A stretch of DNA of 64,000 nucleotides from NCBI RefSeq assembly GCF_947501385.1, contig NZ_CANMVP010000005.1, forward strand, positions 62,001 to 126,000, given 5' to 3'. The notes beneath the pieces were generated by a model, which was not told the origin of the DNA, ran no database searches, and saw only the letters and a list, made by a program, of their open reading frames with translations. This DNA comes from an uncultured Polaribacter sp. (lineage in GTDB: Bacteria > Bacteroidota > Bacteroidia > Flavobacteriales > Flavobacteriaceae). Below, piece after piece: positions 27,286-34,121 of the stretch (the first letter of the stretch is position 1; the number at the start of each line of letters is the position of its first letter). The translations under genes were made by a program, and so were the position numbers.

Positions 27286-28260
27286 TTACAAAACCATTAA
27301 GTTACATCCTCTAATATCAGAATTGTCGAAGCGCCCAATAATTTCAAAGGTTCCGTTTTCATGTACTTTTCCTAAATCTTGTGTCGCTATAAATGAACAT
27401 GAATTGTAATTTGCCAAATCTATCACATTAATTCCACCATTTTTTGCAGGAGCATTTATTGTAAGTGCATCTTCGGTATCTCTTGTTAAAATTTTCATCC
27501 AAGGTGGTGTTTTAAAGATCCCATTTCCTTTAGAATATGCCTGACTTAACAATTCTGTCATTCCGTATTCTGAATGAATTTGAGACACTCCAAAACCCTT
27601 TCCTAAAATACGGTGCAATTCTTCTCTAATTAATTCTTTTCTTCTTCCTTTCATTCCACCAGTTTCCATAATTATGGTATTTTTCAGGTTGAATTGTTGC
27701 ATTTCAACTAAATCTAACAGAGCGAAAGAAACCCCAATTAAAAGTGTTTTTTGTCCGTTTTTGTCTAAAGCGATTAGTTTTTTAGCCAACTCCTCTAAAG
27801 TATCGAGATAAAAGCCACTTTCTGCATTTTTAGATTTCCGAATTAAATCATCTACCATAAAAACCAAAGAAGAACCTTTTCTTTCTAAATAATTGGGCAA
27901 TAAAGCCAAAACTGTGTAGTCTTCTATGTTTTCATAGAAATGAGCGAAACCTTTTAAATAACTTTCTTTGTAAACCTCAATATCTGTAACAAAATGTTTG
28001 CTTGTGATACTTCCTGTTGTACCCGAACTTGTAAAAATTTCTTCGACTTCATCTAAAGAGGAAATTATTTTTTTACTTTTAAAAAACTGAATGGGCAAAA
28101 AAGGAATTTCTTCGACCTTCGAAATATCAGAAGGATGAATGTATAATAGATCACAAAAAGAACGGTACACTTTATTATTATTAAATTGATGTTTAAAAAC
28201 CGCTAAAGCGCATGCTGTAAATTCTTGCTCGTTTTGTATGTTAAAAATGCTATGCTTCAT
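27286..28260 (-). CDS. LuxE/PaaK-like acyl-protein synthetase
   Basis: A 324-residue member of the ANL (adenylate-forming) superfamily, related to LuxE acyl-protein synthetase. The P-loop is IFTSSGTTGSITSKH (about 76-90); the later HSEYGMTELLSQAYS is the adenylate-binding region, and it ends in a short C-terminal part (IGRFDNSDIRGCNLMVL) that lacks the full swinging domain. It probably activates an acyl or aryl acid; in flavobacteria the gene is often near surface-glycan or aromatic-lipid genes, but nothing here shows the substrate. Confidence 0.78.
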   Translation of the reverse strand: MKHSIFNIQNEQEFTACALAVFKHQFNNNKVYRSFCDLLYIHPSDISKVEEIPFLPIQFFKSKKIISSLDEVEEIFTSSGTTGSITSKHFVTDIEVYKESYLKGFAHFYENIEDYTVLALLPNYLERKGSSLVFMVDDLIRKSKNAESGFYLDTLEELAKKLIALDKNGQKTLLIGVSFALLDLVEMQQFNLKNTIIMETGGMKGRRKELIREELHRILGKGFGVSQIHSEYGMTELLSQAYSKGNGIFKTPPWMKILTRDTEDALTINAPAKNGGINVIDLANYNSCSFIATQDLGKVHENGTFEIIGRFDNSDIRGCNLMVL

Positions 28261-28338
28261 AATATTTGGTAAAAATAATACTTATGTACGCAACCTTTTG
28301 CATCTTTTTACATCTTGTAAGAAAGAATTATACATAGT

Positions 28339-29556
28339 ATGAAAAAAAATATTTTTTTTGTAAATTTTCTATTCCTTTTTTTACTGTTTTTTAACTGTGA
28401 AAAAAATGATGAGAAAAAGAATCCTTTTAGCACCGTTTTAAAAGGAGAAGAATTTGTGACAGCCAACAATAAGTTTGCTTTTGATATTTTTAAAAAAATA
28501 TCTAACGAAGAAAATAAAGAAAACTATATGATTTCTCCTGTAAGTCTTTCACTAGCTTTAGGAATGACATACAATGGCGCAGAAAATAGCACAAAAACAG
28601 CATTCGAAAGCACCTTAAACTACACTTCTTTTTTACCCGAAGAAATTAATACAATCAATAAAGAAATTATAACTAATTTGTCTGATAATTCTGCAGGTTC
28701 TACTTTTAAAATTGCAAATTCTATTTGGATTGAAAATTCATTTCCGGTAAAAGAAAACTTTACAAATATCAATGCAAATTACTACAGTGCAGCTGTTGAA
28801 AAATTAGATTTTTCTAATCCCAATTCAGTAAATATCATTAACAATTGGGTTTCTGATAAAACCTATCAAAAAATTTCAAAAATTATTGATATTATAAACG
28901 CAGATGATATCATGTTTTTAATCAATGCTATTTATTTTAAAAGTGATTGGAAATACAGTTTTAATCCTTCAGAAACAACAGCACTTCCTTTTTACGGAAA
29001 GAATAATACTCAAGATGTAAAAACGATGCAGTTAACAGCTGACTTAGATTTTTATGAAAACACAAATTTTACAGCCGTTAAATTACCTTATAAAAACGAC
29101 AAATATGCAATGACCCTTTTACTTCCTAAAGACGGAAAAAATATAGAGGATATTTCTAATCTACTAAACACAGAGAATTGGGGAAATTGGAATGCAAATT
29201 TCAGTAAAAAAGAAGTAGCACTCAAAATGCCAAAGTTTACATTTTCTTATGAAAAAGAATTGAAAGAACAACTTACTGACTTAGGTTTAGGTGTTGCTTT
29301 TACAAATTCTGCAGATTTTAGTAATATAAGTGATGTACCGCTTTCAATTTCTTTTGTATTGCAAAAAACATTTATTGAAGTAAATGAATTAGGAACAGAA
29401 GCTGCGGCTGTTACAGCAGTTGGAATAGGAGTAACATCTGTTGATCTATCTAAAAAAAGTGTGGCACTAAACAAACCTTTTCTATTTGCAATCACAGAAA
29501 AAGAAACAAACTCTATTTGCTTTATTGGTAAGATAGGAATGCCAAATATTGAATAA
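28339..29556 (+). CDS. Serpin family lipoprotein (serine protease inhibitor)
   Basis: A 405-residue serpin. After a lipoprotein signal (Cys20, then EKNDEKK, acidic enough for surface export) it shows MISPVSLSLALGMTYNGA, NAIYFKSDWKYSF, and the reactive-loop hinge LGTEAAAVTAVGIGV followed by NKPFLFAITEKET. The hinge is rich in small residues, so the inhibitory loop insertion should work. It starts a dense operon: the next gene begins 1 nt later, and an ECF sigma factor lies at the far end. It likely guards against external or self proteases. Confidence 0.93.
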   Translation: MKKNIFFVNFLFLFLLFFNCEKNDEKKNPFSTVLKGEEFVTANNKFAFDIFKKISNEENKENYMISPVSLSLALGMTYNGAENSTKTAFESTLNYTSFLPEEINTINKEIITNLSDNSAGSTFKIANSIWIENSFPVKENFTNINANYYSAAVEKLDFSNPNSVNIINNWVSDKTYQKISKIIDIINADDIMFLINAIYFKSDWKYSFNPSETTALPFYGKNNTQDVKTMQLTADLDFYENTNFTAVKLPYKNDKYAMTLLLPKDGKNIEDISNLLNTENWGNWNANFSKKEVALKMPKFTFSYEKELKEQLTDLGLGVAFTNSADFSNISDVPLSISFVLQKTFIEVNELGTEAAAVTAVGIGVTSVDLSKKSVALNKPFLFAITEKETNSICFIGKIGMPNIE

Positions 29557-29557
29557 T

Positions 29558-29968
29558 ATGAATATAAAAAAACTACCTTTATTTTTCTCTTTTTTATTGC
29601 TAAGCATAGTATTCATAAGCTGTGAAAGCAACGAAGCGAACAGTTTAATAGCAGGTAAATGGAATGTCACAGAGATGATTGGGGGCTTTTCTAAACCAAA
29701 AAACTATAAGATTGGGAGTATTACTTGGACGTTTGATACTGATAAAAAAATACTTTCTATTAAAAACAACTTAATTGTTACAAATACCACAAATAACGAT
29801 TTCACAAAGAACGAAACTGGAGATTACAATTACAAAATTGAAACTGAAAACGAAATTGATTATCTCATTATAAAAAATAGAAAAGGCGCTATAAAATCTA
29901 ATGAAGATGGCTTCATGATCGATTTTGGAATCGCTTATGATGATATTGGGTATATTTTAAAACGATAA
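29558..29968 (+). CDS. Small lipoprotein, lipocalin-like
   Basis: A 136-residue lipoprotein (Cys22 in VFISCESNE) with LIAGKWNVTEMIGG and alternating strands ending GYILKR, resembling the short lipocalin-like lipoproteins of flavobacteria. A TTG nine bases upstream opens the frame, but the ATG at 29558 gives a proper signal peptide. It is 1 nt from the serpin stop and abuts the next gene. Function unknown. Confidence 0.75.
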   Translation: MNIKKLPLFFSFLLLSIVFISCESNEANSLIAGKWNVTEMIGGFSKPKNYKIGSITWTFDTDKKILSIKNNLIVTNTTNNDFTKNETGDYNYKIETENEIDYLIIKNRKGAIKSNEDGFMIDFGIAYDDIGYILKR

Positions 29969-30340
29969 ATGATGAAGTTAAAAACAACTTATTTATTACT
30001 ATTTATTGGCATTTTTACTTTTTCTTTTTGTGATGAAAGTAAAACGATTGCTACCGTTTGTAATGTAGAAAATCCATTAGAAGACTTCGCTTTTTTAAAA
30101 GAAGCTAAAAATTCGATTGACGTTATAGATTGTGGTGGTAAGAGCTCAATTACACAATACACCTACAATTCAGAAATTGTTTTTGAAGTAAATATTTGTG
30201 ATCAAATTGCAGACGGACAAACCATAGTTTACAACTGTTCTGGAGAAACGGTTTGTATTTTTGGTGGAATTGCAGGTCAAAATACCTGTCCCGACTTTGA
30301 GGATAATGCAACCAATAAAATTCTTTTGTATGGAAACTAA
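29969..30340 (+). CDS. Small cysteine-rich lipoprotein, unknown
   Basis: A 123-residue lipoprotein with lipobox TFSFC (Cys21) then DES. The mature part begins NVENPLEDFAFLKEAKN and holds a YTYNSEIVFEVNICDQIADG segment with YNCSGETVCIFGGIAGQNTC, so at least five Cys. I know similar sequences as uncharacterised Bacteroidota lipoproteins. It directly follows the previous gene and overlaps the next by 11 nt. Confidence 0.75.
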   Translation: MMKLKTTYLLLFIGIFTFSFCDESKTIATVCNVENPLEDFAFLKEAKNSIDVIDCGGKSSITQYTYNSEIVFEVNICDQIADGQTIVYNCSGETVCIFGGIAGQNTCPDFEDNATNKILLYGN

Positions 30341-30698
30341 AAAACGCTTTTTTAGAGTTATTTTGATTGCTTTTTCTGTGATTTTATTTTTCGCTTCTTG
30401 TGAAAATTCTAATGATGTATCAGAGATAGAAAAAACATACATTATTGCTTCTAAACAAATAGATTGTCAAGGCGTTGGGCCTCAAAAATGTTTTTTAATA
30501 AAAGAAAACCAACAAGAGAGTTGGCAAAATTTTTACAGCGCTATTAGTGGCTTTGAATATGAAGAAGGGTTTGAATATGAGATTTTAGTTTCTGAAAAAG
30601 AAATCGAAAATCCACCACAAGACAGTTCTTCAATAGCATATACATTAATTAAAGTGATTTCTAAAGTTGAAAAAACTTCAGAAAATTTACCAAATTAA
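30330..30698 (+). CDS. DUF4377-like lipoprotein
   Basis: A 122-residue lipoprotein; the frame runs upstream to 30261, but the ATG at 30330 gives a normal signal with Cys24 (FFASCENSND). The segment QSWQ-like ESWQNFYSAISGFEYEEGFEYEIL is the DUF4377 pattern. It overlaps the end of the preceding gene by 11 nt, so the two are translationally coupled. Function unknown. Confidence 0.78.
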   Translation: METKKRFFRVILIAFSVILFFASCENSNDVSEIEKTYIIASKQIDCQGVGPQKCFLIKENQQESWQNFYSAISGFEYEEGFEYEILVSEKEIENPPQDSSSIAYTLIKVISKVEKTSENLPN

Positions 30699-30708
30699 AA
30701 CATAAAAA

Positions 30709-31404
30709 ATGAAAAGTAATTATTTCTTATTTCTATTATTTACAGTAACGTTATTTTCTTGCGAGCAAAATAAAGAAATACATATTGATGAAAGTAACTT
30801 ATTAATTGGTGTATGGGAAAAACCAATTTACGAAGGAGAAAGAGTCACATTTTTAAGAACTTCCGCACTACCAAAAGAAGCTTACGGAATAGCATTCGAA
30901 AACAATGGTATTTTTAGAGAACGAACGTCTGGTTGGTGCGGAACACCTCCATTAAGTTTTTTTAATATTGATGGCAATTTTAAATTAGAAAATACGCTTA
31001 TAAATATTGTTACACAAAATTATCCATCAAATTATAGTTGGCAAATTATTTCGCTAACAGAAAACGAATTGGTAGTTGAAAGCGTAATTACAGATCAAGA
31101 AAAAGACCATAGAAATTTACTAGAACTTTTTGACGAAATTTCTAATTTGGCTTATTCAGCAAGCTGTGTAAATACAGCAGATTGGACTTTTGTTGGTTAC
31201 GGCGCTAAAGCTTGTGGTGGCTTCCAAGGCTATATGCCGTATTCAAAAAATATAGACACTATTGCTTTTCTTAAAAAAATTGATGCATACACGAAAGCAG
31301 AAAAAGAATACAACATCCAATGGAATATTGTTTCTGACTGTGCCTTGGTTGCTCCCCCAACCGCTGTACAATGTCAGAATGGATATCCAGCACTCATTTA
31401 TTAA
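30709..31404 (+). CDS. Lipoprotein of unknown function
   Basis: A 231-residue lipoprotein with lipobox TLFSC (Cys18). Residues 30-130 look lipocalin-like (LLIGVWEKP, later NYSWQIISLTENELVVES). The C-terminal part (about 155-231) is different: five Cys and the motifs TFVGYGAKACGGFQGYMPY and PPTAVQCQNG, which recall a short domain seen in other flavobacterial secreted proteins. I do not recognise a named family. It lies 10 nt after the DUF4377-like gene. Confidence 0.72.
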   Translation: MKSNYFLFLLFTVTLFSCEQNKEIHIDESNLLIGVWEKPIYEGERVTFLRTSALPKEAYGIAFENNGIFRERTSGWCGTPPLSFFNIDGNFKLENTLINIVTQNYPSNYSWQIISLTENELVVESVITDQEKDHRNLLELFDEISNLAYSASCVNTADWTFVGYGAKACGGFQGYMPYSKNIDTIAFLKKIDAYTKAEKEYNIQWNIVSDCALVAPPTAVQCQNGYPALIY

Positions 31405-31424
31405 CAACTATAAAATTTAAAAAC

Positions 31425-31826
31425 ATGAAAAAATTAGCATTTTTAACCTTGGGAGTTATTTTATTTTCATCTTGTTTAAATGATGATACTCCAAATTTTA
31501 CGTATGGGTTTGTAGCCATAGATGAAGCTACTACTCCAACAAGTTTTACATATGGTGAAAAAGATACCATTTATCTAAAATATACATTGCCTAATAGCTG
31601 TTATCATTTTAACGATGTTTATTATGAATATGAAGATACAACAAGAATTGTAGCAGTGCGAGCTTTTATTGATTTAGATGTTGAGTGTATCGAAGAAGAA
31701 ATTGAGAAAGAATACGAATTAATTGTAAATGTAACCCAGGAAGAAGATTATCTTTTCAAATTTTATAAAGGAAAAGATATTGATGGAGAAAACATTTTTG
31801 AAGAAGTTGTAATTCCTGTAAATTAA
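31425..31826 (+). CDS. Small lipoprotein of unknown function
   Basis: A 133-residue lipoprotein (Cys17 in LFSSCLNDD, the DD favouring surface export). The mature part is acidic and beta-rich, with paired Cys in PNSCYHFND and LDVECIEEE. The frame extends to 31371, but the ATG at 31425 gives the signal peptide. It is directly followed by, and may overlap, the ECF sigma gene. Confidence 0.75.
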   Translation: MKKLAFLTLGVILFSSCLNDDTPNFTYGFVAIDEATTPTSFTYGEKDTIYLKYTLPNSCYHFNDVYYEYEDTTRIVAVRAFIDLDVECIEEEIEKEYELIVNVTQEEDYLFKFYKGKDIDGENIFEEVVIPVN

Positions 31827-32373
31827 AAACATCAACCTTAAAGAACTCATAAAAGGGTGCTGTAATCAAAATTTAACAGCACAATCTGAAGTTTATCAGT
31901 TATTTGCTGATAAACTCTTTCCCCTTTGTCTAAAATATTCAAGAAATTATCAAGATGCAGAAGACACCTTGCAAGATAGTTTTTTAACCATTTTTAGTAA
32001 AATAAAACAATACAAACATCAGGGTTCTTTTGAAGGTTGGTTAAAACGAGTTACCATAAATACCGCACTTCAAAAATATAGAAAAAAAGCCCCTTTAGAA
32101 ATCATAAAAGAAATTTCTGACTATGATGAAATTGAAGAAGTTTCTTTAGAAAGTAAATTATTTAGTTTAGATATCTTATTAGAATTTATTCAACAATTAC
32201 CAGACAGGTATCGGTTGGTTTTTAATTTGTATGTATTAGATAACTATGCGCATAAAGAAATTGCAACACTTTTAAATATTTCTGAAAACACGTCTAAATC
32301 TAATTTATCTAGGGCAAGAAAAATTTTAAAAAACAAGTTAGAGATGTATCAACAAACAGCTCAAAAAGCGTAA
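31822..32373 (+). CDS. ECF RNA polymerase sigma factor, non-ATG start
   Basis: The frame has sigma region 2 with YQDAEDTLQDSFLTIF and WLKRVTINTALQKYRK, and region 4 with LPDRYRLVFNLYVLDNYAHK, IATLLNIS and SNLSRARKILKNKL. Starting at the TTG at 31969 would delete the first helix of region 2. The conserved N-terminus (NLKELIKGC, then SEVYQLFADKLFPLCLKYS) is in frame upstream, where no ATG, GTG or TTG exists before a stop. I therefore place the start at ATT 31822 (183 aa), which overlaps the lipoprotein stop, or ATC 31831. The next gene is its probable anti-sigma factor. Confidence 0.8.
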   Translation: MKNINLKELIKGCCNQNLTAQSEVYQLFADKLFPLCLKYSRNYQDAEDTLQDSFLTIFSKIKQYKHQGSFEGWLKRVTINTALQKYRKKAPLEIIKEISDYDEIEEVSLESKLFSLDILLEFIQQLPDRYRLVFNLYVLDNYAHKEIATLLNISENTSKSNLSRARKILKNKLEMYQQTAQKA

Positions 32374-32376
32374 GAA

Positions 32377-33702
32377 ATGGATCACAAAAATATTGATAGA
32401 TTGTTTCAGGAAAAACTCAAAAATTTGGAAGCTTCTCCAAATAAAAGGGTTTGGAGCGCTATTGAAAGTAAATTGGATAAAAAGAAACGAAGAGTACTTC
32501 CCTTTTGGTGGTTTTCTGGCGGAATTGCAGCCTTATTTATATTGGGTCTTTTGCTATTTCCCTTTTCTGAAAAACAACATAATATCAATAACAATCCCAT
32601 TATTGTTACTGAAAAACAAATTGAAGAAAGTGATGATTCTAATAAAACTATTTTAGATTCTGTTGCGAATAAAAGCATTCAAAAAGAAACCATTTTAATT
32701 GCAGATGAAAAAAACAACAAGAAAAAAACAATAAAAAAGAACAAACAGGTAAACAAGCAACCTTTTTTTATGGCTGGTAATAATGTTATAAAAGAAAAAC
32801 TAGTAAAAGAAAAAAGCAAGCAAAAGAATTTTAAAATTGATAGCAATGCCATTAAAAATGAAAAAATCATCACTTCTAAAAAACAGGATCCCGTTTCTAA
32901 AAAATCGAATGCTAGTGAAGGTTTAAAACCGAAAAAGGATTTTCTTACGGTTGTAAAAAAGGAAAAAGACAAAGAAACAGAAGCCATCAAAGAAACAGAT
33001 AATGCTTGGTCTGTAAGCCCTGTTGTGGCAATTTTAAATTCAAATTCTTTTTCAGATACCTCACCAATAGACAACAATTTATTAAACTCTACTTCTGGTA
33101 AAAACTCCTTCTCGTACGGTGTGCAAGTTTCCTATAAAATAAATAAAAAATGGAGCATTCAGTCAGGAATTCATCAACAAAAAATGAGGTACGAAAACAA
33201 TAATATTTCGGTATCAAACACATCTACTTCTAGTAGGTCTTCTGCTGTTTTTAGCACAGGTAATTCATTCAATTTTGATGGCAACAGAAATGTAGAGTCT
33301 TTTAGTGTTTCTAATGTTTCTCTAACAAATACGGTAAGTTCTAATGGAGAGTTATTGCAAGAATATGGTTATATCGAAATTCCTTTAGAAATAAAGTATA
33401 ATGTCTCTAACAATCAAAAATTTAACACACAACTTGTGGCGGGTTTTAGTTCTTTGTTTTTAAACAGAAATAATTTAGAATTGAATACGAATACTGTGAA
33501 TCAGTTTGGAAATGCAGACAATTTAAACGCTATAAACTTTAGCGGTAATTTTGGAGTAGATTTTAACTATTTTTTAGATAAAAAATGGTCTATACATATC
33601 AATCCTATGTTTAAAGCGCAACTAAATACATTTAGTGAAAACTCAAATGGCTTTTCTCCTTTTAATATTGGTGTCTATTCTGGAGTTAAATATAATTTTT
33701 AG
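32377..33702 (+). CDS. Probable anti-sigma factor fused to an outer-membrane beta-barrel
   Basis: This 441-residue protein starts 3 nt after the sigma gene. Residues 1-43 are a charged cytoplasmic segment (KNIDRLFQEKLKNLEASP, VWSAIESKLDKKKRR) like the sigma-binding N-termini of Bacteroidota anti-sigma proteins. Residues 44-64 form one membrane helix (FWWFSGGIAALFILGLLL), 65-215 a Lys/Asn-rich linker long enough to cross the periplasm, and 217-441 alternating strands ending YSGVKYNF, a barrel-type C-terminal Phe. One chain may thus connect outer membrane and sigma factor. No FecR domain or zinc finger is present. Confidence 0.75.
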   Translation: MDHKNIDRLFQEKLKNLEASPNKRVWSAIESKLDKKKRRVLPFWWFSGGIAALFILGLLLFPFSEKQHNINNNPIIVTEKQIEESDDSNKTILDSVANKSIQKETILIADEKNNKKKTIKKNKQVNKQPFFMAGNNVIKEKLVKEKSKQKNFKIDSNAIKNEKIITSKKQDPVSKKSNASEGLKPKKDFLTVVKKEKDKETEAIKETDNAWSVSPVVAILNSNSFSDTSPIDNNLLNSTSGKNSFSYGVQVSYKINKKWSIQSGIHQQKMRYENNNISVSNTSTSSRSSAVFSTGNSFNFDGNRNVESFSVSNVSLTNTVSSNGELLQEYGYIEIPLEIKYNVSNNQKFNTQLVAGFSSLFLNRNNLELNTNTVNQFGNADNLNAINFSGNFGVDFNYFLDKKWSIHINPMFKAQLNTFSENSNGFSPFNIGVYSGVKYNF

Positions 33703-33776: not shown

Positions 33777-34121
33777 ATGAATTTTATAACAAATACATAC
33801 AGAACTTTAAGCGGAATAAAAAAAGTTGTAGAACTTCCTGTTAAAAAAGATTATCAATGGGTTATTTATCAAGATAACAAGCCTGCATATTTTGTAGATT
33901 ATTTCGATTTAGAGAAAGAATCTAATGCAATGATGAATATTTTGGTTTTATGTTCGGATAATTCTTTAAACGACGTTTTAAAAATTATTAGCAAACGTAA
34001 TAATATTTATTTATCTGTTCCTAAGGTCTCTAGAATTGGACTTCAAAAAAAAATAAAATCCGAAATTATAGACTTAGATCTACAACCAATACCTAAAAAA
34101 TGGTTGGCTTATTCTTTATAA
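33777..34121 (+). CDS. Hypothetical protein
   Basis: A 114-residue soluble protein with no signal peptide, membrane segment or known motif. It has mixed helix/strand character with a SDNSLNDVLKIISKRNNIYLSV segment. The ATG follows an A-rich stretch (AAAAAAAATA). Its last 13 nt overlap the converging asparaginase gene, with the stop codons on opposite strands. I do not recognise the family. Confidence 0.6.
   Translation: MNFITNTYRTLSGIKKVVELPVKKDYQWVIYQDNKPAYFVDYFDLEKESNAMMNILVLCSDNSLNDVLKIISKRNNIYLSVPKVSRIGLQKKIKSEIIDLDLQPIPKKWLAYSL

Follow-up and report, generated by a model that had tools for sequence, protein, structure and literature searches.

We analyzed a 64,000-nt stretch of an uncultured Polaribacter genome (NCBI RefSeq assembly GCF_947501385.1, contig NZ_CANMVP010000005.1, positions 62,001 to 126,000), hereafter the window, and focused on eight open reading frames on its + strand between positions 28339 and 33702. 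In order, these encode a serpin, the small proteins LipA, DUF6970, DUF4377, LipD, and LipE, an extracytoplasmic function (ECF) sigma factor, and an anti-sigma candidate resembling the Dma proteins of Bacteroides. We read the locus as an envelope-sensing operon of the Das/Dma type that carries a lipoprotein cassette and whose sigma factor is limited by a poor start codon, a reading to which we assign a probability of roughly 0.65. At rest, the N-terminus of the trans-envelope protein would keep the sigma factor at the inner membrane, and the barrel of this protein would sit in the outer membrane. A disturbance of the outer membrane or surface, or a ligand, would send a signal down the tether and free the sigma factor, which would then transcribe its own operon from the motif ACGCAACC-N15-CATCT together with other genes behind that motif, mostly encoding lipoproteins. 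The cassette between promoter and LipE would be exchanged between species, here with a serpin trapping surface serine proteases, and translation of the sigma factor from AUC and of the anti-sigma factor from AUG would keep the inhibitor in excess.

The eight genes lie on one strand, as tightly packed and in the same order as a preliminary description of this DNA had claimed (gaps of at most 20 nt, or overlaps); the intergenic distances are 1, 3, -11, 10, 20, 4, and 3 nt, with the sigma start set at 31831. All six secreted products, the serpin and the five small proteins, read as lipoproteins with acidic or polar residues after the lipobox Cys, again as described, and these residues suggest that the lipoproteins are exported to the surface. 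A single sigma-type promoter motif stands ahead of the whole set and ends 23 nt before the serpin ATG. Internal terminators, which had been named as evidence against one transcript, were sought in a scan of the + strand: none lies between genes, and the two terminator-like sites inside the operon, at 30509 and 33528, are both within coding sequence. Joint regulation of the operon is well supported at the sequence level.

The sigma frame is open from 31822 to a stop that ends at 32373, and it has no ATG, GTG, or TTG start, a feature absent from the preliminary description. Its first in-frame codon of these types is at 31969, inside region 2 and 46 codons past the start position found by alignment. 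For comparisons, genus refers throughout to the Polaribacter/Tenacibaculum group (58 genomes; the window belongs to genome G000) and family to Flavobacteriaceae. Among loci read by script, the aligned start is ATC (24), ATT (7), or ATA (2) in all 33 genus loci and TTG (11), ATG (6), or GTG (1) in all 18 other family loci. Adding the loci read by hand (ATC in L099 and L109 and ATT in L108 within the genus; TTG in L067 and, with one extra codon, in L077 outside it) brings the totals to 36/36 Polaribacter/Tenacibaculum loci with ATC, ATT, or ATA and 20/20 other Flavobacteriaceae loci with TTG, ATG, or GTG. Downstream of the aligned start, a canonical TTG or ATG stands at 14 codons in 12 of the 33 genus loci, and the other 21 have none before codon 23. 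A single change on the sigma tree (99/98 support) explains the switch, and the codon changed at least five more times afterwards, never to a canonical one; by this reading of the sequences, the non-canonical start has a single origin in the Polaribacter/Tenacibaculum group. The Dma start is ATG in 51/51 loci, as called by a script that favors ATG.

As a control, we considered the 41 matches to sigma region 2 in the window's genome, 30 of which had loci, one being the operon's own sigma gene. Each of the remaining 29 (from L160-L189) carries a canonical codon ahead of region 2. For 10 of them this is TTG or GTG only, with no ATG, and the sigma genes of this genome may commonly have weak starts.

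A tested precedent for start-codon control is known from Streptomyces, where the GTC start of sigR, repressed by initiation factor 3 (IF3), is reported to keep the anti-sigma factor in excess (PMC5472188). The likeness to sigR/rsrA comprises a genus-wide non-canonical sigma start, an anti-sigma gene directly after, and a non-canonical infC. The infC gene of the window's genome (L240, G000:C47:11714-12217) has no ATG, GTG, or TTG start; its frame reads GTC ATA GCA ATA, and its start is likely ATA. Unlike sigR, the sigma genes studied here use AUH codons in an unrelated phylum and are paired with an anti-sigma factor of another architecture, and the start-codon case is independent of Streptomyces sigR. 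By analogy, the start codon may act as a throttle linked to IF3. We tentatively propose, at somewhat less than even odds, that an AUH start was fixed once in the Polaribacter/Tenacibaculum group and retained, that the amount of sigma factor depends on IF3, and that a lower ratio of IF3 to ribosomes switches on a protective lipoprotein coat that includes the serpin. If true, start-codon control of a sigma/anti-sigma switch would have arisen a second time, independently, and in bacteria that lack Shine-Dalgarno initiation. The genus sigma loci have A at -3 in 19/33 and A at -6 in 23/33 cases; both are reported to be favorable in Flavobacterium johnsoniae (PMC6847099).

The window's sigma factor is assigned to generic sigma-70/ECF families, and by anatomy the sigma/anti-sigma pair belongs with the Dma/Das systems. 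Residues 41-63 of the anti-sigma factor form its single hydrophobic stretch, which reads as a membrane helix. In the alignment of relatives the N-terminus is conserved and no column from residue 45 to 210 is invariant, and the N-terminus is probably the sigma-binding part. At E 0.01, an OMP_b-brl_2 barrel is matched in 21 of 22 Dma members, with a best value of 1.4e-9; the match of the window's protein, 23.7 bits, is under the 27-bit cut-off. A sigma frame lies just 5' of Dma in 51 of 57 loci by script and in five more by hand, and L113 has none. This helix, tether, and barrel anatomy gives sequence support to the trans-envelope inhibitor that had been proposed for the pair. PMC13088901 reports that Dma proteins of Bacteroides hold ECF21-group sigma factors, that mutation of dma1 or dma2 in Bacteroides thetaiotaomicron leads to more vesiculation, and that in the Dma2 case the system's own operon and its neighbors are among the most induced genes. 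As described there, Dma1/Das1 and Dma2/Das2 share with the window an ECF sigma factor beside a protein with an N-terminal anti-sigma part, a helix, a long tether, and a C-terminal barrel. The Bacteroides systems differ from the one studied here, which is found in Flavobacteriaceae, has a serpin/DUF4377/DUF6970 lipoprotein cassette between promoter and sigma gene, and combines LipE (which matches NigD only at signal peptide and lipobox) with an AUH sigma start and a defined promoter motif. The preliminary statement that no such system had been described holds for the complete set, but the sigma/anti-sigma half matches a published class and is not in itself a new kind of system.

In most loci inspected, ACGCAACC-N15-CATCT sits between a divergent LuxE-like gene and whichever gene comes first. 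Allowing NATCT, 46 of the 57 Dma loci (32/37 genus, 14/20 other) carry the motif no more than 5.5 kb ahead of the Dma gene; the reversed motif occurred within this distance in 0/57. These counts and the recurrence of LipE-sigma-Dma in other genera speak against a chance arrangement. The window's genome has GCAACC-N14-16-CATCT at 10 sites and the reversed pattern at 2. Across the 58 genus genomes, the strict N15 motif occurs at 58 sites in 36 genomes (reversed, 0), compared to 4 sites at spacings N9-13 (reversed, 29) and 3 at N17-21 (reversed, 13); the scan covered spacings 9-13, 15, and 17-21. This sigma factor would be the one that recognizes the motif. To sample the candidate regulon, we read 49 of the 58 sites; 31 were outside the operon, and 27 of those had an ATG frame of at least 60 codons within 160 nt. 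Lipoproteins made up 17 of the 27 first genes, compared to 73 of 553 genes in the background (Fisher p 1e-8), by a rule that overlooks some likely lipoproteins and with sites that are not independent. Seven protein families were found repeatedly under the motif in different genomes. Ten motif-linked products submitted to Pfam gave LVIVD, LRR, M43 peptidase, META, DUF3575, and a marginal Lipocalin_4, one each, and four had no family.

We retrieved 52 neighborhoods, in which genes were called by a codon-bias script. Searches with Dma at E 0.001 or better gave a match in 128 of 149 family genomes and in 42 of 58 genus genomes, several of the latter weak or partial. Of 37 genus loci entered for counts of cassette genes, 34 were kept; L110, L111, and L113 were left out because they have no full Dma under the rule used. 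The 34 loci contain Dma in all cases, a called sigma gene in 32, LipE in 30, and LipD in 26, compared to DUF4377 in 13, DUF6970 in 9, LipA in 4, and the serpin in 3. The order varies in L101-L104 and L107, where LipE lies 3' of the anti-sigma gene, and the LipE-sigma-Dma trio is also found in other genera. On these counts, LipE, sigma, and Dma make up a conserved core, and the lipoproteins ahead of it make up a variable cassette. The arrangement that had been expected to be conserved is thus conserved in part: the core recurs in other genera, but the eight genes are not kept as a unit, because the serpin is present in only 3/34 and LipA in only 4/34 loci.

Serpins are rare: a match was detected in 2 of 58 genus genomes and in 18 of the 397 family genomes, where 16 are close to full length. 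Three of these 16 are at a Dma operon (the window, G059, and G176), and four more serpins at Dma loci come from G013, Polaribacter glomeratus, and two Aureibaculum species, which places the serpin at this locus in the window's lineage and in two further Flavobacteriaceae lineages. Two changes account for the label "at Dma locus" on a 20-serpin tree, compared to 6.1 in shuffles, so the association reads as either old and lost or gained twice, and not as scattered. The motif precedes 12 of the 20 serpins, 6/7 at Dma loci and 6/13 elsewhere, with one variant in each set of six (TATCT at L146, a spacer of 14 nt at L140); the Cerina serpin locus L147 carries it, and the reversed motif preceded 0 of 19 serpins scanned. 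The serpin is associated with the locus in a non-random manner. Its hinge, GTEAAAVT, aligns as a small-residue, inhibitory-type hinge. When P1 is placed by counting from the P15 Gly, the predicted P1-P1' bond is Thr-Ser (29434-29439). The nearest solved chains are miropin-type entries (best, PDB 5ncs); like miropin of Tannerella forsythia, the window's protein is a Bacteroidota serpin, but it has a predicted P1 Thr and a sigma-linked operon. With such a hinge, the serpin would trap a serine protease, and a role in protease defense, also part of the earlier proposal, is possible. Away from Dma, L136, L137, L138, and L140 represent a second common neighborhood of flavobacterial serpins, with the same motif. 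In the Aureibaculum operons L148 and L149, the motif occurs in two copies, one before the serpin and one approximately 1.2 kb before Dma, near LipE.

Three other explanations were weighed against the envelope-sensing operon. The locus might instead control outer membrane vesicles (OMVs) in the manner of Dma1/Das1, the sigma factor raising vesiculation through the lipoproteins and the serpin being vesicle cargo. The shared anatomy and the vesiculation of dma1 and dma2 mutants in B. thetaiotaomicron speak for this, as does a miropin ortholog detected in an OMV study of T. forsythia (PMC4604654), yet the profile match that might join LipE to NigD is limited to signal peptide and lipobox, and the neighboring genes induced in the Dma2 case are reported to be dispensable for vesiculation (PMC13088901). 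We consider vesicle control a possible but rather unlikely function. It is more doubtful still that the neighborhood arose by chance, with the serpin and small lipoproteins as passengers at a tolerant insertion site that share no function with the sigma pair. Such an origin would fit the strongly varying cassette content and the rarity of the serpin, but it accounts poorly for the recurrence of the serpin at this locus in three lineages, for the motif that precedes 6 of the 13 unlinked serpins (reversed, none of those scanned), and for the preference of unlinked motif sites for lipoproteins.

The last alternative concerns translation: the sigma factor could be made by +1 frameshifting or coupling from LipE, as a fused or coupled product, instead of starting at a near-cognate codon of its own. 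The LipE stop does overlap the sigma frame in the window. However, in L101-L104, where LipE follows the anti-sigma gene, the aligned sigma start is still ATA or ATT; in L102, L104, and L111, the aligned start follows the upstream stop after just one or two codons, none of which could serve as a start; and among fourteen relatives taken from databases, ten have this same first residue, the four others beginning elsewhere, apparently at other near-cognate codons. We regard this alternative as very improbable. A sigma factor limited by its start would be compatible with reinitiation at the AUH codon.

Several observations weigh against the envelope-sensing operon with a start-limited sigma factor as we read it. 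In L108 an ATG precedes the aligned start by six codons, and in L099 an in-frame stop, a sign of decay, follows it by seven. The motif is missing at 11 of 57 Dma loci, and the reversed spacing-control patterns imply up to approximately 6 chance sites per spacing, fewer than 58 yet not zero. The lipoprotein rule was drawn up after the protein list had been inspected. Of the 22 genus genomes that lack this Dma, 5 still have a motif site, and another sigma factor may therefore use the promoter as well; genomes with Dma show a weak surplus of non-operon sites (26 in 36 genomes, compared to 5 in 22 others; p 0.045).

Among the matches listed in our literature searches, which mostly lay outside subscription papers, there was no earlier description of the operon, the motif, or the start codon. 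As far as searched, the combination of a serpin-bearing lipoprotein cassette behind a defined motif with a clade-wide non-canonical sigma start is new. The locus provides a promoter motif and candidate targets for a Das/Dma-type system in marine flavobacteria, connects a bacterial serpin with envelope sigma control, and is a natural example, across a whole clade, of a sigma factor whose gene lacks a canonical start. The general question of how sigma:anti-sigma stoichiometry is set when a single mRNA encodes both factors thereby becomes testable.

Table 1. Features of the operon and its promoter region (window coordinates; bits and E values are from Pfam searches)
Feature	Position	Strand	Details
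ECF-type promoter motif (candidate)	28288..28315	+	ACGCAACC 28288-28295, 15-nt spacer, CATCT 28311-28315
Lipoprotein serpin, 405 aa	28339..29556	+	PF00079, 354 bits
LipA, lipoprotein, 136 aa	29558..29968	+	Weakly lipocalin-like: Lipocalin_8 E 3e-4, below cut-off
DUF6970 lipoprotein, 122 aa	29972..30340	+	PF22311, 53.9 bits
DUF4377 lipoprotein, 122 aa	30330..30698	+	PF14302, 104.7 bits; overlaps DUF6970 gene
LipD, lipoprotein, 231 aa	30709..31404	+	Weakly lipocalin-like: Lipocalin_4 E 0.0058, below cut-off
LipE, lipoprotein, 133 aa	31425..31826	+	Most constant partner of sigma/anti-sigma; no Pfam match
ECF sigma factor, 180 aa	31831..32373	+	ATC start 31831-31833; Sigma70_r4_2 60.7 bits, r2 44.9 bits
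Dma-like anti-sigma factor, 441 aa, ATG start	32377..33702	+	Alignment of relatives; OMP_b-brl_2
Anti-sigma, N-terminal part	32377-32496
Anti-sigma, membrane helix	~32497-32565
Anti-sigma, variable tether
Anti-sigma, C-terminal barrel	~33007-33699

Pfam cut-offs were passed by the serpin, DUF6970, DUF4377, and sigma regions 2 and 4, and not by LipA, LipD, or LipE. LipE has 840 relatives, and PF27154 is marked on most of the 120 among the matches listed. The window's LipE matched no Pfam family, the other 41 members of its alignment gave only scattered weak matches, and a profile search of the PDB with LipE returned no convincing match (the best, at E 0.0023, covered 31 residues of a SUMO chain). 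Besides the lipobox Cys, the 42 aligned members share two invariant Cys residues. We considered whether LipE is a relative of NigD, which is not supported beyond the signal peptide and lipobox: hhalign gave a probability of 90, but over 47 columns of signal and lipobox only, and the NigD NCBIfam model matched 17 of 42 LipE members (best 5.9e-4), the window's LipE scoring 16.3 bits against a 60-bit cut-off. NigD1/NigD2 resemble LipE in being small lipoproteins, and 4 of the 18 NigD loci scanned have an ECF sigma gene close by. These four (L242, L243, L244, and L260) are NigD-family genes of other Bacteroidia, and the sigma gene in their flank resembles that of the window.

Upstream of the operon, a divergent gene at window positions 27286-28260 encodes a LuxE-like acyl-protein synthetase (PF04443, 62 bits) and is kept in 30 of 34 genus loci. 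Directly 3' of the anti-sigma gene, a 114-aa protein with no convincing family is encoded at 33777-34121, and a gene for it is in this position in 16 of 34 genus loci. Two further loci show signs of decay: L113 is a remnant, with a LipD-like start in one frame with the anti-sigma C-terminus and no sigma gene, and in L215, from a genome without this Dma, the motif lies 113 nt ahead of the next conserved gene. The closest named relatives of the window's proteins are from P. glomeratus for the serpin (64%), Polaribacter batillariae for LipE (70%), and Tenacibaculum ovolyticum for the sigma factor (82%); on the sigma tree, the rows closest to the window are L080, L083, L081, and L062.

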